Source: a virus. From it: DNA of 64,000 bases. Where the stretch lies: the IMG/VR virus record IMGVR_UViG_3300023181_000025, positions 124,001 through 188,000 of that record; one strand, given 5' to 3'. Below the pieces are notes generated by a model. It had not been told where the DNA came from. It saw only the letters and a program-made list of their open reading frames with translations, and made no database searches. How positions within the stretch are numbered: the first letter of the stretch is position 1; the number at the start of each line of letters is the position of its first letter. Positions 11,899 through 63,490 of this stretch are shown piece by piece. The position numbers and the translations under genes were made by a program.

Positions 11899-12321
11899 AT
11901 GAATAGAAAATTTAAATTTAGAGTATGGGACAAAAAAAGCAAAACGATGATGTCTTGGAACTGCATCCTTCAGTCGGCTTTTAACAATAAGGACTTCAGT
12001 TTAGTCTATGAAATATTTGCCCAACACAATGAAAATCTTGTAATTCAACAATATATAGGGGTCGAAGACTCGAAAGGGGTCGAAATTTATGATGGAGACA
12101 TGATTTTGGTCGAAGGCTCAAGACATATCGTAAGGTTCGAAGAATGTAAATTTGGCTATTTCACAATCCTTGGTTTTAAAGGGCTACCTGATCCAAGATG
12201 GATGAAAATGGAAGTTTTTGGAAATATTTTTCAGCACGCAGAGCTAGATAAAGTATGGGAACTCTCTAAGTTTGAAAAAAGAATGAAAAACTCTGTTGAC
12301 GTTTGGACACGCATGGTATAA
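11899..12321 (+). CDS. YopX-family protein (copy 1)
   Basis: A 140-residue YopX-like protein: KFRVWDKKSKTM start, QYIGVEDSKGVEIYDGDMI in the middle and EVFGNIFQHAEL near the end. These are the three landmarks of the family. YopX proteins are frequent in phages and prophages but have no firm function. A second copy lies at 18339 in the Ter island. The last 26 bases hold a promoter for the next gene. Confidence 0.85.
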   Translation: MNRKFKFRVWDKKSKTMMSWNCILQSAFNNKDFSLVYEIFAQHNENLVIQQYIGVEDSKGVEIYDGDMILVEGSRHIVRFEECKFGYFTILGFKGLPDPRWMKMEVFGNIFQHAELDKVWELSKFEKRMKNSVDVWTRMV

Positions 12322-12322
12322 T
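12296..12322 (+). promoter_or_regulatory. Strong sigma70 promoter with extended -10
   Basis: TTGACG at 12296-12301, 15 nt spacer, consensus TATAAT at 12317-12322 preceded by TGG (extended -10), 8 bases before the ATG at 12331. This is the best -10 match in the window. It overlaps the stop of the YopX gene. Confidence 0.7.
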
Positions 12323-12330
12323 TTTTATTC

Positions 12331-12807
12331 ATGACACTAACATTCAATAAAAACAGTTGGCACCGCAAACTATATTCTTTTACTTACGGAAAGGACGCTC
12401 CAAAGGATTTTTGTTCTTATTCTAGGCGTATAGGTTTAGCGGTGATTCTTCTTCCGCTCACTTGGTTTGGCGTTTTTAATAAAAGTTCCTATCTTGGAGA
12501 GAAAATTTTTGGCACTATTACTTTTTATGCCTGCGTTTTTATTTTAAGCGGAATGGGGATTACTTCTCTAATGGAGAGTCGATTTTCTCAAGTAAATTGG
12601 CTTTATTATTTTAGTCCTGTAATTGGAGGGCTCTTTCTTATAGCTTATATATTGGTAATTATTTTAGTTTTATTTTTAATTGCTGGAATTGGATGGGTTA
12701 TTTCTAAATTTAAAAATATCAAAAAAATCTTTGAATCCAAAATTGTTTCTACTTTTATTAAGACGAAAAAAGAAAAATATTGCCCGCTTATTGAGTGGGA
12801 AGAATAA
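12331..12807 (+). CDS. Membrane protein before the Ter genes
   Basis: A 158-residue integral membrane protein with about three to four helices (residues near 33-51, 60-80 and a long stretch 90-125). A basic cytoplasmic tail ends KKEKYCPLIEWEE. I do not recognise a function. It is read from the best promoter in the window and directly precedes terC, so it may be the first product of this region. Confidence 0.7.
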   Translation: MTLTFNKNSWHRKLYSFTYGKDAPKDFCSYSRRIGLAVILLPLTWFGVFNKSSYLGEKIFGTITFYACVFILSGMGITSLMESRFSQVNWLYYFSPVIGGLFLIAYILVIILVLFLIAGIGWVISKFKNIKKIFESKIVSTFIKTKKEKYCPLIEWEE

Positions 12808-12881: not shown

Positions 12882-13844
12882 ATGAATATTATCCAACAAA
12901 TTATGTCGCCTTTTGCGGGAATCAACTTGACAGAAATTCTCGTATTTCTAATTCCGTTTATCTTGGCGGTAATTATTGATATTCGAAGTCATAAACCCGG
13001 AGAAACCATCACAATGAAAAATGCCGCGCTTTGGAGCTTAGTTTGGTTTGGCTGCGCAACATTGTTTGGAGGATACATCTACTTAGAGCGGGGAGCCGAG
13101 TCAGCAAGCCTTTTCGCCACGGGTTATGTTTTAGAAAAAGCTTTGGCGGTGGATAACCTTTTTGCCTTCTATATTATTTTCAAATCTTTTGGGTTGACGC
13201 AAGACTCTACCCAGCATTACCAACATAAAATTCTTTATTGGGGTATTTTGGGTGCCATCTTTTTCCGTGTGATTTTCTTGGGGGCCGGAGCACTAATTGT
13301 TAATTTTAGTCCATACGTTCTAATTGCATTTTCGCTCGTTATTCTTTGGACGGTTTGGAAAATGTGGAAGAGTGGCGACGGGGACGAAGAAGTTGATTAT
13401 ACGAACCATTTTTCCGTAAAACTTGTTAAAAAGTTTTCCAAAGTAAATCCAAGCATTCTTTCAGGAAAATTTTTCTCTAACGGAGTTACGCCGTTGTTTC
13501 TTTGCCTAGTGTGTGTGGAGGCGTGCGATGTTATTTTTGCATTTGATTCTATGCCGGTAATTATTGCGGTTGTAAAAGATCCATTCTTGATGATTACTTC
13601 GAGCCTATGGGCGGCGGCAGGCCTTCGGTCTCTGTATTTTCTTCTGATCGCTGCGCAAGGAAAGTTCTGGGCGCTCGATAAGGCAATTATGCTTCTACTG
13701 GTGTTTGTAGCGGGCAAATTGATCGGAAACGGTTTGGGGTATCATCTACCGAACGCTATTAGCTTGACAATTGTTTCGATGATCTTAACTTTTGGCGTAG
13801 TATATTCACTAATTGTAAAGAATCCAGAACCTGAAGAAGCTTAA
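12882..13844 (+). CDS. terC: TerC-family membrane protein
   Basis: A 320-residue TerC protein with about nine hydrophobic segments across its length. The conserved acidic membrane motifs are present: EKALAVDNLF at residues 85-94 and EACDVIFAFDS at 213-223, with the FFSNGVTPLF stretch between. TerC proteins sit in the inner membrane and bind or move metal ions, linked to tellurite resistance, manganese export and phage resistance. The length matches bacterial homologues and no key residue is missing. It heads a run with TelA- and TerD-like genes, so it probably anchors that system in the infected cell. Confidence 0.93.
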   Translation: MNIIQQIMSPFAGINLTEILVFLIPFILAVIIDIRSHKPGETITMKNAALWSLVWFGCATLFGGYIYLERGAESASLFATGYVLEKALAVDNLFAFYIIFKSFGLTQDSTQHYQHKILYWGILGAIFFRVIFLGAGALIVNFSPYVLIAFSLVILWTVWKMWKSGDGDEEVDYTNHFSVKLVKKFSKVNPSILSGKFFSNGVTPLFLCLVCVEACDVIFAFDSMPVIIAVVKDPFLMITSSLWAAAGLRSLYFLLIAAQGKFWALDKAIMLLLVFVAGKLIGNGLGYHLPNAISLTIVSMILTFGVVYSLIVKNPEPEEA

Positions 13845-13856
13845 TATAAAATAAAT

Positions 13857-15050
13857 ATGAATAATACAAAAACAATTACCCCGGTTTCCCTATTTGGAAA
13901 CCAATCTAAACCAATTCGAGGATCAGAGGTTCAATCGGTTGTTATTGATGAGGTTTTTCAAACACCGAAGAATACGCAACTAGAGGTTCTTTCAGAGGTT
14001 CCGGCAAAACTAGTTCAAGAAAATCAACTAGTTCAAATTGATGAACAAAAAATTGTTTTGTTCGGATCTGAAAGGCAACGAGAAATTGGAAAATCGCTTG
14101 ATAGTCTTTTAGTCGAAATTACCAAAGGAAATTCTCCGATTTTGTTTGAGCTTTTTTCTCAACTTAAGAAAGGGGTTGACGAAACAGATGTGGGTCAATT
14201 GGAGGAAGATATTCGAAAGTCGCAAGGAAAGTCATGGTATCACCCCATTCTCGACTCTATTGGTCTGAGTAGTGCGGCCAAACGGATTCAAAAAGCAAAC
14301 GAAAGGATTGGAGGACTTTTGACTAGTAAATCAAAAAGCCTTCTTGACCTAACTAAAACAATGGAGACCAATCTTCAGGTTGAAGTTCAAAAACTTATTG
14401 CAGACAGTAAAAGGCTTGATTCCTTGGCTATTGAATATCGAAGAAATATTCAAGAGTTCGGTAATTATGTTGCCGCTGGAAAACAAATCCTTTTGCAGGC
14501 TCAATCCGTATTAGCGGAAAAAGAGAAGAAAGCGGCGCAAACCAATAGCCCTCTTGATATTGAAGAGGTCAAAAATTTTCGTCAAAAGGTTGATCTATTC
14601 GAATCCCGCCTTGTTGTCTTGGAAACGGTTTATGCCAAAGCACCCGTTGAACTTGAAGCAATTAGAATCAGTCAAGGGGCGGCACTCTCCACTCTTGGAG
14701 AGACAGCGAATAGCGCCCTAGAAGAGTTTAATAGCATTAAGTCTATTCTTATTAGGCTTCAACTTTCTCAGTCTATCCATTCCACTCAGGCCATTAACCA
14801 AGAACGCAAAAATCTTCTTTCAAAGCTTGAAAATCACGGAAGTAATATGCTTGGACAAGTTGCTGAAAAGGCTGCAAAAGATCAAGGGCAAAACAGGATT
14901 GATGATGCCAAGAAACTTCTTGACTTCGCAAACCGCTTGAATACTATCAACGATAAGGTTGAAGCTGAAAAGAAGCTTAATGTTTCTCGGTATGCCGAAG
15001 CAAGACAATCACTACAAGAAACAAAGAAACTAACAGAAAAAATTAAATAA
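13857..15050 (+). CDS. TelA-family toxic-anion resistance protein
   Basis: A 397-residue protein matching TelA in length and build. A disordered 60-residue N-terminus (PVSLFGNQSKPI) is followed by long helical, heptad-rich segments from about residue 80 to the end (RIGGLLTSKSKSLLDL, then ISQGAALSTLGETANSAL). TelA proteins are cytoplasmic partners of TerC and TerD. The ISQGAALSTLGE region corresponds to the most conserved part of the family. A second, shorter relative follows TerD at 15737. The gene is 12 bases after terC, so it is the same operon. Confidence 0.8.
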   Translation: MNNTKTITPVSLFGNQSKPIRGSEVQSVVIDEVFQTPKNTQLEVLSEVPAKLVQENQLVQIDEQKIVLFGSERQREIGKSLDSLLVEITKGNSPILFELFSQLKKGVDETDVGQLEEDIRKSQGKSWYHPILDSIGLSSAAKRIQKANERIGGLLTSKSKSLLDLTKTMETNLQVEVQKLIADSKRLDSLAIEYRRNIQEFGNYVAAGKQILLQAQSVLAEKEKKAAQTNSPLDIEEVKNFRQKVDLFESRLVVLETVYAKAPVELEAIRISQGAALSTLGETANSALEEFNSIKSILIRLQLSQSIHSTQAINQERKNLLSKLENHGSNMLGQVAEKAAKDQGQNRIDDAKKLLDFANRLNTINDKVEAEKKLNVSRYAEARQSLQETKKLTEKIK

Positions 15051-15057
15051 AAATAAT

Positions 15058-15666
15058 ATGGCCACATTTAATCTAGAAAAGGGAAGTAAGTTTAGCATCG
15101 ACAAGGGAATCGCCCGCGTTCTTGTTGGGCTTGGCTGGGATGAAGCAAAAGTTGCTCCACCCATTGATGTTGACGCGCACGCATTTGGATGTGTTCATAC
15201 GGCTCAGGGAACACCTGTTTTTTACAATGACGCTTCTCACGTAGTATCGTATGCGAATAAGGCAAATCTTGAAAAGGGGGCGGCAAAGTCTTTTGGGACC
15301 AAAGACGGAAGTATTACTCATACAGGTGATAACCTTACCGGAGCTGGGGAGGGTGATGATGAGAGCATTGCAATTAATCTTGAACTTCTTCCAGACGAGA
15401 TTGTTGAAGTTTGTATTTTTCTCACGATTCATGACGCCATTAAGCGTAAGCAAAACTTTGGACAAATTTCAAAAGCTTATGTTCACCTTGTCGATCAGGA
15501 TTCGAACGCCGAACTTTGCCGATACGACCTAAAGAACGAATTTGCTTCCGCAATCACCATTCAAGTAGGTAGCCTTGTTAAGGAAAACGGCAGTTGGAAC
15601 TTTAAAGCCGTTGGAGCGGGAACAGACACACAAGGACTAATGGAAGTTCTTGAGCAACTTAGTTAA
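15058..15666 (+). CDS. terD: TerD-family protein
   Basis: A 202-residue TerD-domain protein with all landmarks: an N-terminal LEKGSKF, GLGWDE near residue 26, the calcium-site acidic cluster DVDAHAF near 37-43, then a DNLTGAGEGDDESI loop and an AYVHLVDQ strand. TerD proteins bind calcium and are cytosolic effectors of the Ter stress system. The length is that of a single-domain TerD. It ends the first part of the operon and is followed by an overlapping terminator and promoter. Confidence 0.93.
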   Translation: MATFNLEKGSKFSIDKGIARVLVGLGWDEAKVAPPIDVDAHAFGCVHTAQGTPVFYNDASHVVSYANKANLEKGAAKSFGTKDGSITHTGDNLTGAGEGDDESIAINLELLPDEIVEVCIFLTIHDAIKRKQNFGQISKAYVHLVDQDSNAELCRYDLKNEFASAITIQVGSLVKENGSWNFKAVGAGTDTQGLMEVLEQLS

Positions 15667-15674
15667 GCAATGAC

Positions 15675-15702
15675 TTGACAAATATAGGGTCGCGTTTATT
15701 AT
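15675..15702 (+). promoter_or_regulatory. Promoter overlapping the terD terminator
   Basis: TTGACA at 15675-15680, 16 nt spacer, TATTAT at 15697-15702. The spacer holds the left arm of the terminator hairpin and the -10 lies in its loop. It would transcribe the second TelA-like gene. Confidence 0.6.
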
Positions 15703-15721
15703 GGGCGCGACCCTAATTTTT
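15685..15721 (+). terminator. Rho-independent terminator after terD
   Basis: A perfect 10-bp inverted repeat, TAGGGTCGCG at 15685-15694 and CGCGACCCTA at 15706-15715, with an 11-nt loop, followed by a run of T residues from 15718. It would stop transcription of the terC-telA-terD operon. Confidence 0.8.
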
Positions 15722-15736
15722 TAATATTTGGATAAA

Positions 15737-16639
15737 ATGAGCACAACAAAAAGCATTTTTGATAATTTTCCAAAGAAAACGGAGGAAAAGAAAGCTGTGT
15801 CTATTTTTGCAAATCCAATATTTAAAGCAGAATCTAAACCATATACCGGCCCAAAACCACTTTTCGAAAATTCAAAAGTTCGAAATAGGATTATGGTATC
15901 AGTAGAAGATTTGAAAAAGTTTTCTACCGACCTTGAAAGTATTGAAATCGCTCAAAAACAAATATTAATGACAAACGCAGACGAAATCTGTCTGGAATAT
16001 GTTCTTAATTGGGGGTCAGAAATTCAAAAGCTTTATACGCAATCTTTAGAAAATTTTTCGTCAATCGCGACGAGACAAGAGATTTCTGAAATCAAAAATT
16101 TGATTTGCGGAATAGTGGGAGTATTAAATAAAATTGTTGAGCCAACAAACGCCATCATAAAAAGTTTAATTAAGTATCTTTCTCAAGAATATAATACCCC
16201 GGCGCAATATCAGCAAGAAATAAAAGAATTCTGTAATAAGTTTGATGCGCTTTTGCCTAGTTTGGTGGAAATTAGGAAGGAAACGGCATTTTTAACAAAG
16301 CAAACAAATGATTTGCTTAAAGGGCTGGAACCTTATATTATTACATGTAGTTTTTTTTCGGAGTATTCAAAAGATAATTTTCCCCAACAGCTTTACATTT
16401 CTCGTCTTTCTAGTCTGCTGTCAACAAGAATAGGTTTGATACAAAATATTGCTATCCAAAATACATTTTTGATGAATTTGGTTGACTTGACTGAAAATGT
16501 GAATAACGTAATTGCAAATGATGTCCCAGCTTGGCTCACTTGCTATTTTAGTAATTTAAATAACAAGGATTCTCCCGAGACATTCGATATAAGAAAAAAA
16601 CAACAAACAATTCTAGAAAAACTAAAAAAATATGGCTAA
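15737..16639 (+). CDS. Second TelA-like helical protein
   Basis: A 300-residue protein, mostly long helices. Its N-terminus (SIFANPIFKAESKPY) resembles the start of the TelA protein upstream (SLFGNQSKP), and its general build is similar. It lacks the ISQGAALSTLGE block, so it is a divergent or shortened TelA relative or another coiled-coil partner of the Ter complex. The start is the ATG at 15737; a TTG nine bases upstream is less likely. It overlaps the next gene by 8 bases. Confidence 0.65.
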   Translation: MSTTKSIFDNFPKKTEEKKAVSIFANPIFKAESKPYTGPKPLFENSKVRNRIMVSVEDLKKFSTDLESIEIAQKQILMTNADEICLEYVLNWGSEIQKLYTQSLENFSSIATRQEISEIKNLICGIVGVLNKIVEPTNAIIKSLIKYLSQEYNTPAQYQQEIKEFCNKFDALLPSLVEIRKETAFLTKQTNDLLKGLEPYIITCSFFSEYSKDNFPQQLYISRLSSLLSTRIGLIQNIAIQNTFLMNLVDLTENVNNVIANDVPAWLTCYFSNLNNKDSPETFDIRKKQQTILEKLKKYG

Positions 16640-16850
16640 TACAGTAAACGGTGGCGGGATTTCTTTTGTGGGCTTACTCACAATCCTTTTCATCGCACTT
16701 AAACTAATCGGCATTATTTCATGGCCATGGATTTGGGTTTTGTCCCCGATTTGGATCGGGTTCGCCCTTGGCCTTGCGATTTATCTTCTTATCGGTCTTG
16801 CGGGCATTGTTGTTATTATTTTTGCAGCAATTTTTGGATCTTTTAAATAA
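16632..16850 (+). CDS. TMEM185-like small membrane protein
   Basis: A 72-residue protein with two transmembrane helices (about residues 9-27 and 35-68) separated by an ISWPWIWVLSPIWIG turn. That turn is the signature of the Tmemb_185A-like small proteins common in phages and bacteria. It is an inner-membrane protein of unknown role. Sitting between the TelA-like and VWA genes, it may be the membrane partner of that complex. Confidence 0.75.
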   Translation: MANTVNGGGISFVGLLTILFIALKLIGIISWPWIWVLSPIWIGFALGLAIYLLIGLAGIVVIIFAAIFGSFK

Positions 16851-16875
16851 TCTAACTAACACAAAACAAACAAAT

Positions 16876-17598
16876 ATGAAATTCGATCTACAAAAACAAA
16901 CGGATAAGGCAAAGTTTACTATCGAAAAGAAAGGGATTCCAACTAGCCAGAAGATGGCGGTTGTATTGAATCTTGACGTTTCCGGTTCCGCTCAGGGTCT
17001 ATATACTTCAGGAACGATTCAAGAGCTTTTCGAAAGCATTACACCTCTTGCTCTTAATTTTGATGATAACCAATCTCTTCAAGTCTTTACATTTTCTTCT
17101 GGTAGCAGCAGTGTAAGCGAAATTACTCCTGATGCGAACGCCTCAAATTATGCAGGATACATTAAGAAGAATATTTTGGAAAATCGAAATGTGCCAAAGT
17201 GGGGAGGAACTGAATATGCTCCAGTTCTTAAGGCAAATCTGGAGAATCTTGGATATTACAAGAAGTCGGGCCTTTTTGGAGGAAAGCAACTTCAAGCCAA
17301 AAATGATTCGGGATACCCGTCATTTATTATAACGTTCACAGATGGAGCGAATCAAGACCAATACGAAGTTCGCAGGCTTTTGCGGGAGTATCAAGATAAA
17401 GGGGTGAACGCTTATTTCCTTTATATTGGCGTCGGCCCATCTTCTTATTTTACAAATATTGAAGAGCTTGGCGAGGAATTTTCCAATGTAGGTTTTGTTG
17501 GAGTTTCCAATATCCAAAAGTTTGTTGATTCGGATGATATTTACGATCAGCTTCTACCCGATGAGCTAATTGAGTGGCTTAAAGCGGCTCGCAATTAA
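16876..17598 (+). CDS. VWA-domain protein (TerF/TerY-like)
   Basis: A 240-residue von Willebrand factor A domain. The metal-ion-dependent adhesion site is visible: D34-V-S36-G-S38, a later GGTEYAP near 115 and FTDGANQD near 155. It is of the TerF/TerY type seen in bacterial Ter operons, where VWA proteins bridge TerD-like and effector proteins. It starts after CAAATATG. An upstream in-frame start would overlap the membrane-protein gene. A terminator follows 23 bases after the stop, closing the transcription unit. Confidence 0.85.
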   Translation: MKFDLQKQTDKAKFTIEKKGIPTSQKMAVVLNLDVSGSAQGLYTSGTIQELFESITPLALNFDDNQSLQVFTFSSGSSSVSEITPDANASNYAGYIKKNILENRNVPKWGGTEYAPVLKANLENLGYYKKSGLFGGKQLQAKNDSGYPSFIITFTDGANQDQYEVRRLLREYQDKGVNAYFLYIGVGPSSYFTNIEELGEEFSNVGFVGVSNIQKFVDSDDIYDQLLPDELIEWLKAARN

Positions 17599-17621
17599 CA
17601 ATTATTACATATAATTTCAGA

Positions 17622-17647
17622 AACCCCGGCGAAAGCTGGGGTTTTTT
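17622..17647 (+). terminator. Rho-independent terminator after VWA gene
   Basis: Nine-bp stem AACCCCGGC / GCTGGGGTT (one G-U pair) around a GAAA tetraloop, followed by TTTTTT at 17642-17647. Confidence 0.85.
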
Positions 17648-17650
17648 GTG

Positions 17651-17678
17651 TTGACTAATCAAAGATAATAGGTAGGCT
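17651..17678 (+). promoter_or_regulatory. Sigma70-like promoter
   Basis: TTGACT at 17651-17656, 16 nt spacer, TAGGCT at 17673-17678, 6 bases before the HAD gene ATG. It starts right after the terminator T-run. Confidence 0.55.
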
Positions 17679-17684
17679 ACTGAC

Positions 17685-18335
17685 ATGACAAACGACATTA
17701 ATGGTGTATCGCTAGATTTCTGGCGAACGATCGCAACACCAAATCCAGAATATTCGAAACAAAGAAATTTGTTTCTTTCTAAGATATCTGGGTTCAGTGA
17801 AAGTTATTGTGCGGCGGTTTATAAAAGCATTAAGAAACATTACGATGGCCGCGCCGAGTCCGAAGGAAAAGCCTCTACGCCCCATGAATGCTGCGAGGCG
17901 CTTATGCTTCCTTTAGGGCTTGATGGTGAATGCACTCCGATGGACCTTGAGCATGATTTCATGGAAATGTTTGTGGAGAATCCTCCAACGGTTTTAGACG
18001 AAACCGTTGAACAGATTAACCGCTTGTCCAAACATTATAAACTCAATATTTGTAGTAATACTAATTTTATTTTTAGCTCTATTCTTCGGAAAGAAGTGTT
18101 GGAGCGGCGCGGATTAAAATTTGATTTTGAGTTGTTTTCTGATGAGGTGGGAGTGTCTAAACCTCACAAGACAATTTTTGAACTAGTTAAGCTTAAGCAT
18201 GGACTTAATGGCGATCAGGTCTTGCATGTGGGCGATACAAAGTCTACAGATTTTGATGGAGCTTTGAATGCGGGCCTTAAAGCATTTCTCATTAAAGACG
18301 CAAATGATCTTCCACAACTACTTAAAAAACTTTAA
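17685..18335 (+). CDS. HAD-superfamily hydrolase of the Ter island
   Basis: A 216-residue HAD (subfamily IA) hydrolase. The nucleophile is D11 in LDFWRT; the second Asp of the usual DxDxT is a Trp, as in dehalogenase-like branches. Motif II is SNT near residue 124, then KPHKTIF, and HVGDTKSTDFDGA near 186 supplies the last acidic pair. A helical cap lies at about 20-110. Bacterial Ter neighbourhoods often include a HAD enzyme beside a phosphoribosyltransferase, proposed to make a nucleoside-like metabolite, and both occur here. The substrate is unknown. Confidence 0.8.
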   Translation: MTNDINGVSLDFWRTIATPNPEYSKQRNLFLSKISGFSESYCAAVYKSIKKHYDGRAESEGKASTPHECCEALMLPLGLDGECTPMDLEHDFMEMFVENPPTVLDETVEQINRLSKHYKLNICSNTNFIFSSILRKEVLERRGLKFDFELFSDEVGVSKPHKTIFELVKLKHGLNGDQVLHVGDTKSTDFDGALNAGLKAFLIKDANDLPQLLKKL

Positions 18336-18338
18336 AAT

Positions 18339-18788
18339 ATGAAATTAAAATTTAAAGTATGGGCCAATTTGGCAAATGATGATGGTTGCGTTGGGTTTTT
18401 AGAAAATCGCTCTCCCGTCGCCGAAGGGGTAGATTTTTTCTATGACGCGAGGTGGCGTGGAATTTCTTATTTCATAAATAAAAATACTTTTGAAGTAAGT
18501 CTTTCAATAGGAGTGCAAGATAAAAATGGAATTGATATTTATGAGAACGATATCGTTTCTGTTATATATCCCGAGAATAGATTTATTGTAAAATATGGGA
18601 TTGTAAAAAGAGATATAGTGGGATTTGATGGTGAAATTCACCCAATCGAAATAAGAGGGTTTTATTTTGAAAATATTTCTACCAAAAACCCGCATTTTTC
18701 TATAACAAATAATTTTTTTGGGGAGAATGACCTAAAAAGGACTGAAATAATTGGAAACGTGTTTGAAAATCCAGAACTATTAGTTTGA
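18339..18788 (+). CDS. YopX-family protein (copy 2)
   Basis: A 149-residue YopX-like protein (KFKVWAN start, IGVQDKNGIDIYENDIVSV centre, TEIIGNVFENPEL end). It shares the layout of the copy at 11899 with low identity. It lies 3 bases after the HAD gene and overlaps the promoter of the next gene with its stop codon. Function is unknown. Confidence 0.8.
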   Translation: MKLKFKVWANLANDDGCVGFLENRSPVAEGVDFFYDARWRGISYFINKNTFEVSLSIGVQDKNGIDIYENDIVSVIYPENRFIVKYGIVKRDIVGFDGEIHPIEIRGFYFENISTKNPHFSITNNFFGENDLKRTEIIGNVFENPELLV

Positions 18789-18812
18789 CAAATCGAGAAA
18801 AACCATTAAATT
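18785..18812 (+). promoter_or_regulatory. Sigma70-like promoter overlapping a stop codon
   Basis: TTGACA at 18785-18790 contains the TGA stop of the YopX gene; 16 nt spacer, TAAATT at 18807-18812, 6 bases before the ATG. Confidence 0.6.
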
Positions 18813-18818
18813 AGAAGC

Positions 18819-19640
18819 ATGAAATCAAAACACATCCAATTTGCGGCGCACCGATTTTCCGACCTTCGCAAAGCAACATTCCCCGTAAACGACTATTCGC
18901 GCCTTAAGTTTGGCTGCGATACAGCGGCTCGCAAATTTGGCTATGAACTCGCTGATAAATTTGCGCAAAATCATTTACAAGATATTATTTCAGATCAAAT
19001 TGTAGTTATTCCAGCGCCATACAATTATGTAAAAAATGCTTCCACGATCCTGACGCACCACTTTCTGAATAGACTTAATTCTATCTCAGTCGCAAATGGG
19101 GGCAAGCATGTAGATTATTCGGTTGTAAACCGAAAGACGACATACATTGAGGACTACGCGGCCCTTAGTCAAGAACAGCGAAAGGGCATGATCGACAACG
19201 ATGCTTTTTATATTAATAAGGACTTTTTCAAAGGAAAGACTTTGGTTTGGGTTGATGATGTAATCATAACCGGAACTCACGAAGACAAGGTTAAGGAAGT
19301 TCTCGCGGCACAAGGTCTTAAAAACAAATGTTTCTTTGTTTATTTGACTAAATATAACGGAACCGACGCGGCAATTGAATCACGTCTTAATCTTTGCTAT
19401 GTGAAGAAATTGGAAAACTTTTCTAAAATCTTGCGCAAACAAGAAAACCATGTGACGGTTCGGACTCTAAAGTATATTCTTACAGAGACCGAAGAAAACG
19501 CCAAATTTTTGCTCAAGGGCCTTAACCGAAAGAAGATTTCTGAAATTTACCATGGATGCCTTGGAAAGGGATACTATAAAGTGGCGAATTACGAAAAGAA
19601 TTTCAAAATTATTTCAGATTTAATGACTGAAAAAGCTTGA
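18819..19640 (+). CDS. Phosphoribosyltransferase of Ter-linked type
   Basis: A 273-residue type I phosphoribosyltransferase-like protein. The PRPP loop is LVWVDDVIITGTHED at about residues 142-156 (two Asp, then TGT), preceded by a VVIPAPYNY strand near 62. This fits the PRTase group found beside terC/terD genes in bacteria. It would move phosphoribose onto a base-like acceptor in a small-molecule pathway with the HAD enzyme just upstream. No partner domain (TRSP) is fused. A helical C-terminal region from about 200 is unassigned. It has its own promoter. Confidence 0.75.
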   Translation: MKSKHIQFAAHRFSDLRKATFPVNDYSRLKFGCDTAARKFGYELADKFAQNHLQDIISDQIVVIPAPYNYVKNASTILTHHFLNRLNSISVANGGKHVDYSVVNRKTTYIEDYAALSQEQRKGMIDNDAFYINKDFFKGKTLVWVDDVIITGTHEDKVKEVLAAQGLKNKCFFVYLTKYNGTDAAIESRLNLCYVKKLENFSKILRKQENHVTVRTLKYILTETEENAKFLLKGLNRKKISEIYHGCLGKGYYKVANYEKNFKIISDLMTEKA

Positions 19641-19670: not shown

Positions 19671-20756
19671 ATGTTTGATTCGGGAAATTATAAATTTGTA
19701 GTGGCCATTACTGGCGGAGGTAGTGAATTTATTTCTGATAGGCTTGTTGAGGGCGGGGCATCTAGCTATTTGCTGGAGGCGACAATTCCGTATTCTCAAG
19801 AGTCTTTGAAAGAATATGTAAATGGTGTGAGGGAAAAGTTCTGTAGTGATTCTACGGCTCGACAGATGGCCATGGCCGCTCATTTGAGAGGCATTAAACT
19901 TGGTTACGCCAATACCATTGGTATTGGAGCGTCAAGCTCTCTAACAAAGCCTGACGGCGAAAGAGAGGGTCGCGACCACAGGGCCTTTGTTTCTGTTTGT
20001 TTCCACCCTTATATTTTCTCTGTTTCTCTTGATTTAAACAAATTAGAAATTGATGGCCGAGAACAGCAGGAAAGGTATGTTGCAGAAAGTATTTACGCCT
20101 TATCGTCAGATTTAGTGATGTGGCTTGATCAAAAAAACGATCTTTTTCTAAAGAAACTTCGCGAAAGATGGGAAAGTGAAAACGGCACAATTTTTAATAG
20201 TCACAACAAAGAGTTAGCGGAGTTTATTGTTTCTGACAAGGGTTTGCTATTTTTTGAAAAATATAAGCCAACTGGTCAAGTTTGCGTTTATTCAGGAAGC
20301 TTTAATCCATATCATGAGGGGCACCAATACATTTTTGACAAAACTCAAGAATTGTTTGGAAAAGAAAACGTTTACTTAGAGCTAGCAATTGTTAATCATG
20401 AAAAGGGCGCGCTCGACACCATCGAAATAGCAAAACGAATTCAAAAGTTCTCCGAAGTTAATTTTGTGTTATGCAAATTTGGAATGTTTGTTCATAAGGC
20501 AATGGAGCTTAATAAAATTTTCGAACTTCCCCCTATTTTCCCCATGGGATATGATACCTTCAAGCGTATAGAAAAATGGACTCAGCCTAATGAATTTCTC
20601 GTTTTCCCTCGAAATGGAGAAAGGATAAACAGTTATGAAGAAAACCTTGTTTATGTTCACCCCTACAGCTATAAACTAGGCGAAGGAATTAATATAAGTA
20701 GTTCAGAAATTAGAGCAAACAATGAAAACAACCAAATTCCAAACAAAATATACTGA
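19671..20756 (+). CDS. CinA-like / NMN adenylyltransferase-like fusion
   Basis: A 361-residue two-domain protein. Residues 1-160 resemble the CinA C-terminal (NMN deamidase) fold: TGGGSEF at 14-20, a YSQESLKEYV segment, STARQMAMAA and IGIGASSSLTKPDG. Residues 203-350 form a nucleotidyltransferase of the NMNAT/NadD class with SGSFNPYHEGH at 208-218 and ISSSEIR at 342-348. The second domain would join a mononucleotide to AMP to make NAD+ or a related dinucleotide. The first may hydrolyse or sense pyridine mononucleotides. NAMPT lies 2 kb downstream, and together they could rebuild NAD+. The CinA assignment is weaker than the transferase one. Confidence 0.75.
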   Translation: MFDSGNYKFVVAITGGGSEFISDRLVEGGASSYLLEATIPYSQESLKEYVNGVREKFCSDSTARQMAMAAHLRGIKLGYANTIGIGASSSLTKPDGEREGRDHRAFVSVCFHPYIFSVSLDLNKLEIDGREQQERYVAESIYALSSDLVMWLDQKNDLFLKKLRERWESENGTIFNSHNKELAEFIVSDKGLLFFEKYKPTGQVCVYSGSFNPYHEGHQYIFDKTQELFGKENVYLELAIVNHEKGALDTIEIAKRIQKFSEVNFVLCKFGMFVHKAMELNKIFELPPIFPMGYDTFKRIEKWTQPNEFLVFPRNGERINSYEENLVYVHPYSYKLGEGINISSSEIRANNENNQIPNKIY

Positions 20757-20958
20757 AGGGTTTTCTATCTTGCTTCCTACGGATTTTGAAGTTTTCAAAA
20801 TGTCTCCTGAAAAGCGTGATGAATGGGCTATTAAATTTCTAAAACTTAATAAAATTAAAAAGAAAGATGAAGTCTTCGTAAGATTTTGTGACTTTGACGC
20901 CAACGGAAAGCCCACCAAGATGAGGATAGATTCTTTTAATTATAAAAGTTTAGCATAA
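20722..20958 (+). CDS. Hypothetical protein
   Basis: A 78-residue charged protein with no recognised family (LLPTDFEVFKMSPEKRDEWA). The ATG lies inside the end of the fusion gene, giving a 35-base overlap, longer than usual here. The reading frame and packing to the next gene (2 bases) still favour a real gene. Confidence 0.55.
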   Translation: MKTTKFQTKYTEGFSILLPTDFEVFKMSPEKRDEWAIKFLKLNKIKKKDEVFVRFCDFDANGKPTKMRIDSFNYKSLA

Positions 20959-20960
20959 AT

Positions 20961-21386
20961 ATGAAAGTTAAAATTAAAAAAATTGCGCCAGTCGCGGAAG
21001 AAGAGATTATCGGGATTTTAATAGGAGAGGTCGAGGCGGGGAGTGCCTTTTGGGTTCTGAGAGACGATACAAAAGGAACGTTTACTAGCTCTAGAGTTGC
21101 GGAGGTTAGAACTGATTTATCAGGGGATATCATAGCTGCAACTAAAAATTCTACATATTCGATAAAAAAAATTGGGGAGGTTCCGGGTCAAGCAAATAAT
21201 TATATTAAGGCTTTGGAGATTCAAAAGAAATATAATATTGAATTTCGCCAAGTAGGGGACTATCTTCGTATGGAGAAAAACAAAGAAAGGGGTAAACCGT
21301 TATGCTCCAAATGTGGCGGAACAGGGAATGAACTTTCTGGCATGTATAAGGAATGTGACAAATGTAACGGGGAAGGATACGTATGA
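20961..21386 (+). CDS. Protein with DnaJ-type zinc motif
   Basis: A 141-residue protein. The N-terminal 70 residues form a small strand-rich domain with FTSSRVAEV and KNSTYSI, shared with the gene at 21607. The last 35 residues carry two CxxCxGxG-like repeats (CSKCGGTG and CDKCNGEG), as in DnaJ zinc fingers. It probably binds zinc and perhaps unfolded protein or nucleic acid. It overlaps the next gene by ATGA. Confidence 0.65.
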   Translation: MKVKIKKIAPVAEEEIIGILIGEVEAGSAFWVLRDDTKGTFTSSRVAEVRTDLSGDIIAATKNSTYSIKKIGEVPGQANNYIKALEIQKKYNIEFRQVGDYLRMEKNKERGKPLCSKCGGTGNELSGMYKECDKCNGEGYV

Positions 21387-21610
21387 AATATTATGAGATT
21401 ATAAGCCATTATTTACCCAATGAAGTGGTGGGTGTTTGCACAAGCGATGGAATGAAAGACGTTTTTAATGAAGAAAACGGAACCATTATTCTTGGGCAAA
21501 TTACAAAAAAACAATTTGAAAAATTTTGTGATGATAATGAGTGGTCTGAGCCAATTTCTAAAAAAAGATTTAAAGGAAAAATGGTTTTCCAATTAGAACA
21601 AATTCAATGA
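21383..21610 (+). CDS. Hypothetical protein
   Basis: A 75-residue alpha/beta protein (YYEIISHYLPNEVVGVCT), unrecognised. ATGA overlaps on both sides make translation likely. Confidence 0.6.
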   Translation: MKYYEIISHYLPNEVVGVCTSDGMKDVFNEENGTIILGQITKKQFEKFCDDNEWSEPISKKRFKGKMVFQLEQIQ

Positions 21611-21906
21611 ACGTAAAAATAACTAAACTTGCCGCCGCCCCTACTGCGGAATTTAAATCTGGAGAATGGAAGGATTGGATTGAGGGATATGGCTGCGTAG
21701 GCAAAAGTCTTCCTGTTGAATACACTCTCAAGGGGACAACAGAAGAATTTACGTTGGGAGAGCCAATGTGGGTGAAAAGAACCGAGCGTAATGGGGTCGC
21801 GGCAGTTGGATTATTTGTTAGTTCAAATATTTTGGAAATTGCGAAATCTAAAAAAAACCAATACATTAGGACACAAAATTCTATTTACATGGTAGAAGAA
21901 TATTAA
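21607..21906 (+). CDS. Hypothetical TSxV/NSxY protein
   Basis: A 99-residue protein with the same C-terminal pattern as the N-terminal domain of the gene at 20961: a tryptophan strand (MWVKRTER), then FVSSNILEI and a closing TQNSIYMVEE. This small strand-rich module recurs in phage proteins without a known function. It is linked to its upstream neighbour by ATGA. Confidence 0.65.
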   Translation: MNVKITKLAAAPTAEFKSGEWKDWIEGYGCVGKSLPVEYTLKGTTEEFTLGEPMWVKRTERNGVAAVGLFVSSNILEIAKSKKNQYIRTQNSIYMVEEY

Positions 21907-21919
21907 AATAAAAATTATT

Positions 21920-22141
21920 ATGGACCTTAAAGAAAAATTAAAAAACTTAGTTATAGAAATGGAGAAACCTATCTTTAACAAAATTCGAGTAGCTTCGCTT
22001 ACAACTGATTTGGCGGCAGATCTTGAAGAAGAAGAGACACAGGTTCCCGGAGACGTATTAGATGTGTTGGACAATCAAGTCAGAAAGACGGCTTTAATGG
22101 GATTCCTCGCACTTATTGCACAAACCCTTCAAGAACAATAA
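21920..22141 (+). CDS. Hypothetical helical protein
   Basis: A 73-residue protein, acidic in the middle (ADLEEEETQVPGDVLD), with a helical C-terminus. Unrecognised. It starts 13 bases after the previous gene in an AT-rich context. Confidence 0.55.
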   Translation: MDLKEKLKNLVIEMEKPIFNKIRVASLTTDLAADLEEEETQVPGDVLDVLDNQVRKTALMGFLALIAQTLQEQ

Positions 22142-22146
22142 TTAGT

Positions 22147-22584
22147 ATGAATATCGAACAAGACTTAAAAAATGCAATGAAATCAAAAGACGTTGCGAAA
22201 CTCCCGACTCTTCGGGCGCTTAAGGCGGCCCTGGAAGCAGCGGCAACAAAAGGAAAAACTCGTGTTGAGTTGAGTGATTTGGAAAAGGTCGCGGTAATTC
22301 GCGCCCTTGTAAAACAACGCGAAGACTCTATCGAGGCTTTCCAAAAGGCTGGCTATCCTCATCGCGCCGAAGATGAAAGGGCGGAAAAAGAACTATTGGA
22401 AACTTATTTGCCCGCGCCCTTATCCGACGAAGATCTCAATAATCTTATTGACAAGGCAATCCAAGAAGTTCAGGCTGTGTCCAAGAAAGAAATGGGGAAA
22501 GCTATCAAGAGAGCGGTCGAATTGGCTGAGGGGCGGGTAGCCAGCAATATTATTTCTCAGAAAATTCAAAACAAACTACAATAA
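22147..22584 (+). CDS. GatB/YqeY-domain protein
   Basis: A 145-residue YqeY-like protein: LRALKAALEAAATKGK near the start, then VIRALVKQREDSIEAF and AEKELLETYLPAPLS, ending AVELAEGRVASNIIS. This order and length match free-standing YqeY proteins, which share the tRNA-binding tail domain of GatB amidotransferase subunits. Its role in a phage is unclear; tRNA binding is a reasonable guess. It precedes the NAMPT gene by 59 bases. Confidence 0.85.
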   Translation: MNIEQDLKNAMKSKDVAKLPTLRALKAALEAAATKGKTRVELSDLEKVAVIRALVKQREDSIEAFQKAGYPHRAEDERAEKELLETYLPAPLSDEDLNNLIDKAIQEVQAVSKKEMGKAIKRAVELAEGRVASNIISQKIQNKLQ

Positions 22585-22643
22585 ATTTATTGGGTTTATC
22601 CAATATAATTACGCGAAAATATACAGAAGAATCAAAAAGAAAA

Positions 22644-24053
22644 ATGAAACCAGATAAATATAAAATTATTTCCCAAACCGACAGTTATAAGGTTTCTCAA
22701 TGGAAAGTTTACCCAGACAATATGACAAAAATGTTTTCTTATCTGGAGAGCCGGGGAGGAACTTCGGAAGAAATCACATTTTTTGGTCTTCAATACTTAC
22801 TAAAAGAATATATGGTCGGTCCGGTAATTACGCGGGACGCCATTAATACAATGGAGGTTTTCTTTAAAGGTCATTTTGGAAGAGATGATGTCTTTAATAA
22901 AGAGGGCTGGGAATATATTTTGAAGGAGCATAGTGGGTATCTGCCCATCTCTATTAAAGCGGTCCCGGAAGGAACAACCGTTCCGGTCAAAAATATTCTT
23001 TTGGCGGTAGAAAACACGGACCCTAAATGTGCATGGCTTGTAAATTATTTGGAAACGCTTATCCTTAAAGTTTGGTATCCAATCTCTATTGCTACTCGGT
23101 GTAGAAAAATTCGAAAAGCAATTCTAAAGCATTTGGAAATTAGTGGGTCGCCAGAAACTATTGATTTTAAATTGGTTGATTTTGGTTATCGTGGAGTTAC
23201 TACAGAAGAACAGGCTGGAATTGGCGGATTGGCCGTTTTGACATCCTTTATGGCCACGGATAATTTGGCTGGTATTATTATGGGGATGGAATATTACGGG
23301 ACACAAATGTGCGGTTTCTCTATTCCGGCTACAGAGCACAGTGTGATGGTGGCAAAGGGTCGCGAAGGGGAGCTTGAACAATGCAAACGATTTCTGGACA
23401 AATATCCTAATGGATTAATCGCTTGTGTCTCGGATACTTATAATATTTTTGAATGTTGTAAAAATATCTGGGGTGGCGAACTAAAGGATACTATTGAAAA
23501 TCGGAACGGAACTTTAGTTGTTCGTCCTGATAGCGGTGATTTTTTTGTTGTAGTTCCAAAAATCCTAGATATTTTGGCGGAGAAATTTGGATTCTTCATC
23601 AATTCCAAAGGGTATAAAGTTCTTAGCGATAAAGTAAAGATTATTCAAGGTGACGGAATGGACCCAGAAACAATTGATTTGCTTTTTGCTAAATTGGTAG
23701 AATTAGGTTGGAGTGCGGACAACCTTACCGTAGGGTCGGGAGGTGGACTTCTTATGGAAAATGTTACTCGGGATACTCATAAATTTGCGATCAAGGCTTC
23801 TTGGGCGGAAATTGATGGTAAAGGGGTTAGTCTCTTTAAAGACCCGATCACGGATAATGGAAAAAGCAGCAAAAAGGGCCGACTTAAACTTGTAAAACAA
23901 CTTGCTTTGGATGGCGGCACACAATACATTACAGTTAATGACGCCCACCCTCTCTTTTATGATATGAAGGATGAGCTTGTAGAAGTCTATCGAAACGGTC
24001 ATTTGTTGGTTGACCAAACATTTGAAGAAATCAAGAATCGGGCTAATCAATGA
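22644..24053 (+). CDS. nadV: Nicotinamide phosphoribosyltransferase (NAMPT)
   Basis: A 469-residue NAMPT (NadV) of full length. It joins nicotinamide and PRPP to give NMN, the first step of NAD+ salvage. Conserved segments are all visible: TDSYKVSQ at 12-19, DFGYRG at 179-184, the catalytic-His segment ATEHSV around H242, RPDSGD at 294-299, QGDGMD at 335-340, GSGGG at 364-368 and TRD at 375-377. The start is the ATG at 22644; a TTG 54 bases upstream is less likely. With the NMNAT-like fusion at 19671 the phage could rebuild NAD+ from nicotinamide, as in the NARP2 anti-immunity pathway. It overlaps the next gene by ATGA. Confidence 0.95.
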   Translation: MKPDKYKIISQTDSYKVSQWKVYPDNMTKMFSYLESRGGTSEEITFFGLQYLLKEYMVGPVITRDAINTMEVFFKGHFGRDDVFNKEGWEYILKEHSGYLPISIKAVPEGTTVPVKNILLAVENTDPKCAWLVNYLETLILKVWYPISIATRCRKIRKAILKHLEISGSPETIDFKLVDFGYRGVTTEEQAGIGGLAVLTSFMATDNLAGIIMGMEYYGTQMCGFSIPATEHSVMVAKGREGELEQCKRFLDKYPNGLIACVSDTYNIFECCKNIWGGELKDTIENRNGTLVVRPDSGDFFVVVPKILDILAEKFGFFINSKGYKVLSDKVKIIQGDGMDPETIDLLFAKLVELGWSADNLTVGSGGGLLMENVTRDTHKFAIKASWAEIDGKGVSLFKDPITDNGKSSKKGRLKLVKQLALDGGTQYITVNDAHPLFYDMKDELVEVYRNGHLLVDQTFEEIKNRANQ

Positions 24054-46737: not shown

Positions 46738-47130
46738 ATGAAAACTAAGCAAGAGATCATCGAAGAAACGGCAAATTATTACAATCTGAGTAATCGGGCA
46801 GTTACTCTTTCAGGTAAATGTAAATATTCAACCAGTGACGGAAGACAATGTGCCGTAGGTAGGTGCTTTACTGATAAAGAGGCTGACAGCTTTTGTGATT
46901 TTGACGGGCCGGTGAGTTTTGTAAACTCAACCCTAAAAGTCAACGCAAATAAAGAGCTTGATGATATTTTGAAAGAGGAATATCGCGGCCATTCGATTAT
47001 TTTTTGGATGGATCTTCAAAGTTTTCATGATACACAGGAGAACTGGAATGATGATGGAATTTCTGAGGTTGGGCTGAAAGAAAAAGCAGAACTTCTTGAA
47101 AAGTATGTTGACAAACAAGAGGGAAACTAA
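46738..47130 (+). CDS. Family A paralogue (CAVGRC ... FHD)
   Basis: A 130-residue member of Family A. It has KQEIIEETANYYNLSNRA at the start, CKYSTSDGRQCAVGRC with three cysteines near 30-45, and YRGHSIIFWMDLQSFHD near 90. It is read from its own promoter and is followed directly by another copy. Function is unknown. Confidence 0.7.
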   Translation: MKTKQEIIEETANYYNLSNRAVTLSGKCKYSTSDGRQCAVGRCFTDKEADSFCDFDGPVSFVNSTLKVNANKELDDILKEEYRGHSIIFWMDLQSFHDTQENWNDDGISEVGLKEKAELLEKYVDKQEGN

Positions 47131-47142
47131 TACTTTATTCAC

Positions 47143-47502
47143 ATGACCAAGCAATCAATTATTGAAGAGACCGCCGCCTATTACAATTTGGGAAATCGTT
47201 CGGTTTGCCCTAAAAAGGGCGGGTGCCTCTATTTGAACCCCGAGGGAAAAATGTGTGCTTTTGGTAGGTGCATGACGGAGGAAGGTCTGGACGCTTATAA
47301 GAATTCGGGCGATTACGTTAGAGCCTTAAGTGTTGGAGATAGCGTTGACCATCTTTTGCTGGCAGATTATAAGGGCCATTCTGTAGAGTTTTGGACCGAC
47401 ATCCAAATGTTCCATGACATGGAAAATCATTGGACTGAGACCGGCCTTTCCTCTAAAGGCGAAGAATTTAAGAAAAAACTTCTCAAAAAGTATGTTGACT
47501 AA
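47143..47502 (+). CDS. Family A paralogue (CAFGRC ... FHD)
   Basis: A 119-residue member of Family A, the tandem neighbour of the copy at 46738: SIIEETAAYYNLGNRSV, GKMCAFGRCMTEEG, YKGHSVEFWTDIQMFHD and a closing KLLKKYVD. The end of its frame contains the -35 element of the next promoter. Confidence 0.7.
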   Translation: MTKQSIIEETAAYYNLGNRSVCPKKGGCLYLNPEGKMCAFGRCMTEEGLDAYKNSGDYVRALSVGDSVDHLLLADYKGHSVEFWTDIQMFHDMENHWTETGLSSKGEEFKKKLLKKYVD

Positions 47503-60218: not shown

Positions 60219-60584
60219 ATGAAATACTCCAAAATTCAAATCATCGAAGAAATCGCGGCAAAGTATAATAGTGACAATCGTTCTTATAAATCTATGGCGG
60301 GGTATGAAGTGTGCCAATACGATTTTCGTGGGAAACAATGTGCCGTAGGTCATTGCATGACAGAAGAAGGGCGGGATTTGGCCATGAGACAGTTATGGGA
60401 AGGCGTAGAGGATTTGGGAATTCGTCTTTTGGAGGGTAGCCTGAAGGAAGAATACAAGGGGCACGAATTGGAGTTTTGGAGCGACCTTCAACGTTTTCAT
60501 GATACAACCCAATATTGGAGATCCGAAGGACTTTCTCTTCGTGGTGAATTTTACAAACAAGAACTACTAATTAAATATGCTTGA
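60219..60584 (+). CDS. Family A paralogue (CAVGHC ... FHD)
   Basis: A 121-residue Family A member: KIQIIEEIAAKYNSDNRS, GKQCAVGHCMTEEG near 44 and YKGHELEFWSDLQRFHD near 86, closing ELLIKY. The start is at the ATG at 60219. It overlaps the next gene by 8 bases. Confidence 0.7.
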   Translation: MKYSKIQIIEEIAAKYNSDNRSYKSMAGYEVCQYDFRGKQCAVGHCMTEEGRDLAMRQLWEGVEDLGIRLLEGSLKEEYKGHELEFWSDLQRFHDTTQYWRSEGLSLRGEFYKQELLIKYA

Positions 60585-61901: not shown

Positions 61902-62279
61902 ATGAACGTTAAAAGGAAAACAGATGTTATCCGCGAAACTGCGGAATTTTACAATCTTAATAATAGAGGTGTGGATGGTAATGGCCATTACCATTATCTA
62001 ACCGATGATAAAAAGTGCGGCGTAGGTCGCTGCATGACGGATGAAGCCCTACAAAGGTCTCTGGAAGGATGGCCGTCTATTGGATCTTTTGTCCAGTGGC
62101 AGATTGGCAGTGAATCTTATTTAAAAATTTTTAAACCCCAATATAAAATTGATGATATTCAATTTTGGGAAGACATTCAGGGCTTTCACGACGTAGATGA
62201 CTATTGGAATGAAACTGGTCTTTCGGCAGAAGGTAAGAAAAAATATCAACGCCTTCTTGACAAATACCTCAATCAATAA
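61902..62279 (+). CDS. Family A paralogue (CGVGRC ... FHD)
   Basis: A 125-residue Family A member: VIRETAEFYNLNNRGV, KKCGVGRCMTDEAL near 42, QFWEDIQGFHDVDDYW near 87 and a closing RLLDKYL. Function is unknown. Confidence 0.7.
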   Translation: MNVKRKTDVIRETAEFYNLNNRGVDGNGHYHYLTDDKKCGVGRCMTDEALQRSLEGWPSIGSFVQWQIGSESYLKIFKPQYKIDDIQFWEDIQGFHDVDDYWNETGLSAEGKKKYQRLLDKYLNQ

Positions 62280-63076: not shown

Positions 63077-63490
63077 ATGAAAACTAAAATTAAAGTCATT
63101 AACGAAACTGCGGCACATTACAATTCTAATAATCGTGGAAACGATGGATTGAGCTGTGTGTATGATGCGGGTGATGGGAACAGGTGTGCGGTAGGTAGGT
63201 GCATGACGCCCGAGGCATTGGAAAAGTCTTTGTTTGTTTTGCATAGTAATTATGCTTGGGGAAGCGTAAGAAACATTGAGGCCAACATTGAAAACCATTT
63301 GTTTCAATTCCCAGAAGGAGCGAAAAGTTTTCTTGATCTTCTTAGGGAAGAATACCAAATTGATGATCTTAAATTTTGGAAAGATCTCCAGCAATTTCAT
63401 GATGAGGGGTCTAATTGGGACGACCAAGGCCTTTCCGAGCGAGGGAAAAAGGCTTATAAGATTCTGCTTGACCAATATAAGGGTCAATGA
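63077..63490 (+). CDS. Family A paralogue (CAVGRC ... FHD)
   Basis: A 137-residue Family A member: VINETAAHYNSNNRGN, NRCAVGRCMTPEALEKSLF near 35, a 15-residue insert, then LKFWKDLQQFHDEGSNW and a closing ILLDQY. It is the longest copy. It starts 3 bases after the membrane-protein gene. Confidence 0.7.
   Translation: MKTKIKVINETAAHYNSNNRGNDGLSCVYDAGDGNRCAVGRCMTPEALEKSLFVLHSNYAWGSVRNIEANIENHLFQFPEGAKSFLDLLREEYQIDDLKFWKDLQQFHDEGSNWDDQGLSERGKKAYKILLDQYKGQ

Follow-up and report, generated by a model that had tools for sequence, protein, structure and literature searches.

The DNA analysed here is a 64,000-nt window (bases 124001–188000) of the 211,168-bp IMG/VR virus record IMGVR_UViG_3300023181_000025, and its subject is a Ter-type gene island at positions 12882–19640 of the window, all on the plus strand. 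The record encodes a terminase, a tape measure protein, a DNA polymerase and a ribonucleotide reductase, in agreement with the phage context given in a preliminary description of the sequence. The genes lie in the order TerC-TelA-TerD-orphan helical protein-small membrane protein-vWA-HAD-YopX-PRTase. Six of the eight genes named in the preliminary description were backed by hidden Markov model (HMM) matches, namely those for TerC, TelA, TerD, the vWA protein, a HAD hydrolase and a phosphoribosyltransferase (PRTase) of the PRTase_3 family. Intact genes for an Alx-type TerC, TerD, a TerF-like vWA protein, HAD and PRTase_3, together with a divergent TelA, are packed into 6.8 kb.

TerC (12882–13844; PF03741, 2.8e-37) falls in the Alx subfamily (TIGR03718, 269.9 bits; cut-off 246.4) and keeps the acidic membrane residues, with the conserved positions D91, N92, D216 and D222 all present. 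The TelA encoded next (13857–15050) is divergent, and its match to PF05816 (1.1e-9) is above the cut-off but covers only the first two thirds of the model (about 200 of 332 positions). TerD (15058–15666; PF02342, 6.7e-47) aligns over its full length with the solved relative 2kxt/2kxv (2.3e-35) and retains the acidic calcium-site segment DGSITHTGDNLTGAGEGDDES. The TerF-like vWA protein (16876–17598, with the best start at ATG 16876; PF10138, 3.2e-28) has an intact metal ion-dependent adhesion site (D-x-S-x-S, T, D), made up of D34, S36, S38, T112 and D156.

The HAD and PRTase_3 enzymes

The HAD hydrolase (17685–18335; phrog_14393, 6e-46) retains the nucleophile Asp, the Lys and the second acidic motif (GD...D). 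Its motif I reads DxWxT in place of DxDxT, a replacement found in all 13 aligned phage members of the family and also visible in the bacterial copies. The nearest solved relative, 2om6 (1.4e-19), shares the DVWNTL motif; the HAD profile also reaches the HAD domain of a ribofuranosyltransferase (7shg) at 2e-4, a poorer match than 2om6. PRTase_3 (18819–19640; PF15610, 5.6e-47; phrog_13415, 6e-91) contains the phosphoribosyl pyrophosphate (PRPP) motif VDDVIITGTHE, within which DDVxITG is conserved. No sequence match was found in the PDB. An AlphaFold2 model built from 16 sequences was confident (predicted local distance difference test score, pLDDT, 90.6) and matched purine PRTases and ComF at E values of about 1e-5 with low TM-scores, and the assignment as a divergent type I PRTase is supported by this predicted structure.

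In the ribofuranosyltransferases, a PRTase transfers ribose-5-phosphate from PRPP, after which a HAD enzyme removes the phosphate (PMC11127046). The simplest reading, by analogy, is that the HAD–PRTase_3 pair would perform the same two steps, PRPP-dependent ribosylation and dephosphorylation, and the two enzymes probably make a ribose-containing small molecule. A nucleoside-like metabolite, as suggested in the preliminary description, is plausible. The likeness lies in a PRPP enzyme combined with a 5'-phosphate-removing HAD, and the HADs themselves are distantly alike. However, the ribofuranosyltransferase is one fused protein that acts on glycans or lipid phosphates, whereas HAD and PRTase_3 are separate proteins in the window, and its gPRT part has no sequence match to PRTase_3, the model of which is nearer to the purine PRTases and ComF.

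Association of the HAD–PRTase_3 pair with TerD in phages

All phage and bacterial genomes examined had HAD and PRTase_3 as neighbouring genes, the pair in the window being split by the YopX gene. They are adjacent in 16 other phage loci (two of which, L021 and L022, are near-identical) and in the bacterial loci, mostly overlapping or no more than 6 nt apart, and the largest gap among the 13 phage loci measured was 172 nt. Trees of the two proteins recovered the same phage groups (Gurke/CcrColossus/Domovoi and XaC1/G006/phAPEC8-like), with weakly supported deep branches, in line with joint inheritance of the two genes.

As searches of IMG/VR with single proteins found no close relatives, an alignment-based search was needed. 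The set selected for PRTase_3 comprised 12 phage records (ten from IMG/VR, Rhizobium phage Y65 and Xanthomonas phage XaC1) and the control set 11 large phages chosen for NAMPT alone, giving 23 records for the linkage test. TerD was present in nine of the 12, the three without it being fragments of 33, 55 and 78 kb, while neither TerD nor PRTase_3 was found in any of the 11 controls. Fisher's exact test gave p = 6e-6 for the nine records against the controls, and about 3e-4 when the three fragments were counted as failures; these values are only indicative because some of the records are related. PRTase_3 thus predicts TerD genome-wide in phages, to the extent that these values indicate. TerD was found in 222 GenBank phage records and PRTase_3 in 154; for NAMPT the count was 1913 phage records.

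The pair adjoins Ter genes in five further phage records, and in many records it lies 30–200 kb from the ter block. The separation is about 28–165 kb in the Rhizobium, Xanthomonas, Caulobacter and Brevundimonas phages; the Caulobacter and Brevundimonas phages with "abbreviated Ter operons" therefore also encode HAD–PRTase_3 elsewhere in their genomes. The preliminary description had allowed that the genes might be scattered over unrelated phages with no conserved order. This is not the case: at least seven diverse phages (Rhizobium phage Y65, Gurke, CcrColossus, Domovoi, the IMG/VR phages G005 and G010, and phiPsa374) share the arrangement TelA-vWA-TerC-TerD, and HAD–PRTase forms one adjacent pair, although the order in the window is rearranged relative to that block.

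HAD–PRTase_3 in bacteria

HAD–PRTase_3 was found beside Ter genes in three Bacteroidota loci. In the first (L042), the pair is accompanied by three TerD genes, three vWA genes, a PP2C gene and a kinase gene, in the second (L043) by two TerD genes and TerC, and in the third (L073) by TelA and vWA genes together with a kinase-like gene and, where PP2C would stand, a large gene. The first locus, from a Tannerella metagenome-assembled genome, also has an open reading frame (ORF) for a P-type ATPase, of the Ca type as judged from sequence, directly after the pair (L042:10832–13540). PRTase_3 is rare in bacteria, with three of the 295 Tannerella-order genomes scoring above the cut-off, and statistics on the bacterial linkage are limited for this reason. 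The preliminary description held that the phage island repeats the bacterial Ter neighbourhoods. The same pair does stand beside Ter genes in these loci, but the island is not complete, two of the names given to the phage genes were wrong, the order is rearranged and promoter-like sites divide the island. It also has neither the PP2C and kinase genes that lie by the vWA genes in L042 nor several TerD copies.

The pair is also carried by Rhizobiaceae (Rhizobium and Sinorhizobium/Ensifer; L030–L041), including plasmid pRL10 of Rhizobium johnstonii (L037). In the HAD tree, the Rhizobiaceae copies group with that of Rhizobium phage Y65.

Transcription and translation signals

A leaderless-type promoter motif, defined as TTGAC-N16-19-TAnnnT-N4-9-ATG, was compared with dinucleotide shuffles of the genome. 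The genome contains 43 instances, whereas the shuffles averaged 3.5 (maximum 7), and the distance from the -10 element to the ATG peaks at 6–8 nt, as for leaderless promoters. Sites in the window include those at 12296, 17651, 18785, 19637, 39895, 47108, 53989 and 54640, and the genes for HAD, PRTase, an NMN (nicotinamide mononucleotide) adenylyltransferase-like protein and the membrane protein preceding TerC have one site each. On the plus strand, TTGACT-N16-TAGGCT (17651–17678) stands 6 nt before the HAD ATG, TTGACA-N16-TAAATT (18785–18812) 6 nt before the PRTase ATG, and TTGACG...TAnnnT (12296–12324) 6–7 nt before the start codon (ATG) of the membrane-protein gene that precedes TerC. HAD and PRTase each being behind their own leaderless-type promoter, the island would not be one operon. 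A strong intrinsic terminator-like hairpin with a 14 bp stem and T tail lies 3' of TerD (15685–15715, plus strand; z = -4.7, with none of 200 shuffles folding as well). These predicted signals suggest several transcription units in the island. A promoter-like TTGACA-N16-TATTAT (15675–15702, plus strand; 11 of 12 consensus positions) overlaps the terminator and, as a lone consensus match, is not evidence by itself.

Shine-Dalgarno-like sites precede about 10% of the ORFs in the window, compared with about 20–85% in the other Ter phages examined, with the exception of L028, where the share is as low as in the window. This suggests a host that may start translation without Shine-Dalgarno sites.

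Comparison with known systems

Ter systems in jumbo phages were described in 2021 by Iyer et al., who noted PRTase and HAD enzymes for Acinetobacter phage vB_AbaM_ME3 and proposed that such systems act against superinfecting phages (PMC7824862). The island in the window is therefore not a new kind of system. The association of the Ter system with biosynthetic enzymes goes back to Anantharaman, Iyer and Aravind, as represented in PMC7824862. What is new here is the HAD–PRTase_3 adjacency, the coupling to TerD, the Rhizobiaceae pair without TerD and the separate leaderless-type promoters. Like the window, the large phage ME3 carries TerC, TerD and vWA with PRTase and HAD genes, but it has PRTase_2, a DxD-type HAD and StiP-PELOTA and no PRTase_3, whereas in the window the PRTase is PRTase_3, the HAD is of the DxW type and TelA can be recognised. 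No StiP, PELOTA or ATP-grasp was found among the island proteins, to which this search was confined.

The Caulobacter and Brevundimonas jumbo phages share the block of TelA, vWA, TerC and TerD, but in the TelA-vWA-TerC-TerD order and with the pair about 28–40 kb away, unlike the window, in which all lie within 6.8 kb in another order. In the Phapecoctavirus group (phAPEC8 and relatives), HAD–PRTase_3, TerC, TelA, vWA and TerD are found within about 10 kb; here other genes are interspersed, and HAD and PRTase overlap with no YopX gene between them. Otagovirus phiPsa374, reported to carry terC, terD, terF and telA (PMC9796965), has TelA, vWA, TerC and TerD as in the window, but its genome is without PRTase_3. 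The R478-type terZABCDEF tellurite-resistance operon, known also for colicin and phage resistance, includes several TerD-family paralogues and TerB, in contrast to the one TerD and no TerB of the window. Phage inhibition and colicin resistance have been reported for ter loci (Whelan 1995, as cited in PMC9796965), and published papers have guessed at superinfection exclusion, metal stress or xenobiotic resistance as the function of phage Ter genes.

Possible roles of the island

The island may be a Ter-type module with which the phage conditions the membrane of the cell it infects, a reading to which we give a probability of about 0.45. TerD, a calcium-binding domain protein, would sense the ribose-containing compound or a change in calcium, and TerD, vWA and TelA would assemble under the membrane around TerC, a Mn/Ca-type exporter, possibly joined by the orphan helical protein. 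The envelope would be altered as a result and resist superinfecting phages, or pore-forming or metal stress, during phage replication. Metal sensing by the Ter genes is presumed from knowledge of the families. The conditioning role is favoured by the intact domains and motifs, the tracking of TerD by PRTase_3, the Bacteroidota loci, the adjacency of HAD and PRTase, the predicted type I PRTase fold, the chemistry of the ribofuranosyltransferases, the effects reported for ter loci and the superinfection role proposed for jumbo phages. It is possible but doubtful that, in phages and a few bacteria, HAD–PRTase_3 is devoted to the two-step synthesis of a ribosylated signal, or of a lipid or envelope modification, that would switch a TerD-TelA-vWA-TerC membrane complex. 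If true, phages would carry their own small-molecule-triggered membrane defence.

Several findings weigh against this conditioning role. The usual second Asp of the phosphatase motif I is missing from HAD in 13 of 13 aligned members, and the pair is divided by separate promoter-like sites for HAD and PRTase as well as by the YopX gene. PRTase_3 was found in four of ten phages selected for TerD and was missing from the other six. TerB (PF05099) had no match anywhere in the 211-kb record, which may be incomplete. The island's TerC, TelA, TerD, vWA, HAD and PRTase genes are real, but with TerB missing and a single TerD gene in the record, the earlier description of it as complete is not supported. 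No PADLOC family matched the Ter proteins; against known defence families the island gave only weak PRTase-fold matches (ShosT, 1.5e-4). The main evidence against a strict model in which the signal passes to TerD is from the Rhizobiaceae, as none of six genomes with the pair has TerD anywhere and the pair can therefore act without it.

The same genomes favour a different explanation, in which HAD–PRTase_3 works independently as a pair of nucleotide or ribosylation enzymes and its position next to the Ter genes of this genome is incidental; this is also favoured by its own promoter-like sites in the window and by its distance from the ter block in the Rhizobium, Xanthomonas, Caulobacter and Brevundimonas phages. 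We think this quite unlikely, given that the pair co-occurs with TerD even when not adjacent to it, is missing from the controls, and adjoins Ter genes in Bacteroidota and in the five further phage records. Simple homeostasis, with TerC exporting Mn or Ca and metalating envelope proteins, TerD buffering calcium and the other genes in a supporting part, would give a host under metal or other stress in long infections a healthier cell rather than a defence. TerC scores above the curated cut-off of the TerC/Alx metal homeostasis subfamily with its acidic residues conserved, and TerC proteins are Mn exporters that metalate secreted enzymes (PMC12096827). Jug phages carry TerD genes and a Ca-type P-type ATPase, and their TerD regions are highly transcribed while lytic genes rank low (PMC12363816); the ATPase ORF after the pair in L042 points the same way. 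Nevertheless, homeostasis leaves the tracking of TerD by HAD–PRTase_3 unexplained, a search near the island turned up neither a Mn riboswitch nor any other Rfam element, and we regard this explanation as unlikely.

Phages sometimes use their versions of host defence components as decoys or dominant-negative subunits, and the preliminary description raised such a block of the host's own Ter system. Here the enzymes, TerC, TerD and vWA retain their key motifs, and a decoy would have no need of so many subunits side by side, making this very improbable. Even less credible is an anti-NAD-depletion pathway in which the pair belongs to neighbouring NAD-salvage genes. Genes for the NMN adenylyltransferase-like protein (19671–20756) and NAMPT (22590–24053) are close to the pair in the window, and the Rhizobium phage pair adjoins an annotated NMN adenylyltransferase, but NAMPT is roughly 25–240 kb from PRTase_3 in 11 other records that have it. 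NAMPT is moreover common in phages, and the NAMPT-selected phages are without PRTase_3. The link was rejected, since the closeness of NAMPT and the pair is not conserved.

The genome-wide coupling of HAD–PRTase_3 with TerD provides a concrete enzyme reaction to assay. Cultivable E. coli phages of the phAPEC8 type with the same gene set make the question testable at the bench, and the Rhizobiaceae copies without TerD are a natural control for the enzymes acting alone.

Other genes in and around the island

The orphan (15737–16639, alternative start 15728) is an all-helical protein of 300 aa with no Pfam, PHROG or NCBIfam match and no relative in the phage records. It had been called a second TelA-like protein, an identity that was rejected, as it has no score with a phage TelA profile and the first TelA is the only one in the 211-kb record. 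Its nearest scores in a small set, 0.03–0.05 against other helical proteins, are at chance level, its AlphaFold2 model was unusable (pLDDT 42), and single-sequence hhalign comparisons among TelA, the orphan and other ORFs were uninformative. The guess was reasonable because another phage, G005, has two TelA genes in tandem ahead of vWA-TerC-TerD (L059:6547–9027).

The 72-aa membrane protein (16632–16850) belongs to phrog_1374 (2.4e-15), a phage membrane protein family, and the earlier name TMEM185-like was dropped because Tmemb_185A matched only at E = 0.1, under the cut-off. A further membrane protein upstream of TerC (12331–12807, plus strand; phrog_944, E = 6.7e-18) is from a non-Ter family and is probably encoded by the first gene of the TerC transcription unit. 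The YopX-family gene between HAD and PRTase (18339–18788; PF09643, 6.5e-9), absent from the preliminary description, was found in this position in no other genome examined. It is one of three in this phage genome, the others being at 11899–12321 of the window and at L007:8425–8925. A second vWA-like gene, distant from the island (bases 101238–102239 of the record; L007:1238–2239), belongs to phrog_26613 and has a weak PF10138 match.

Downstream of PRTase, the region 19671–24053 encodes the NMN adenylyltransferase-like protein, YqeY and NAMPT. The NAMPT gene is clear; the NMN adenylyltransferase-like domain scores 1.1e-8 with TIGR00482, which falls short of that model's cut-off, and the N-terminal part of the protein looks CinA/PncC-like by eye. 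A family of diverged repeats is spread over 46–64 kb of the window (46837–47451, 60330–60536, 62004–62225 and 63173–63436) and is probably a multiplied small gene family.

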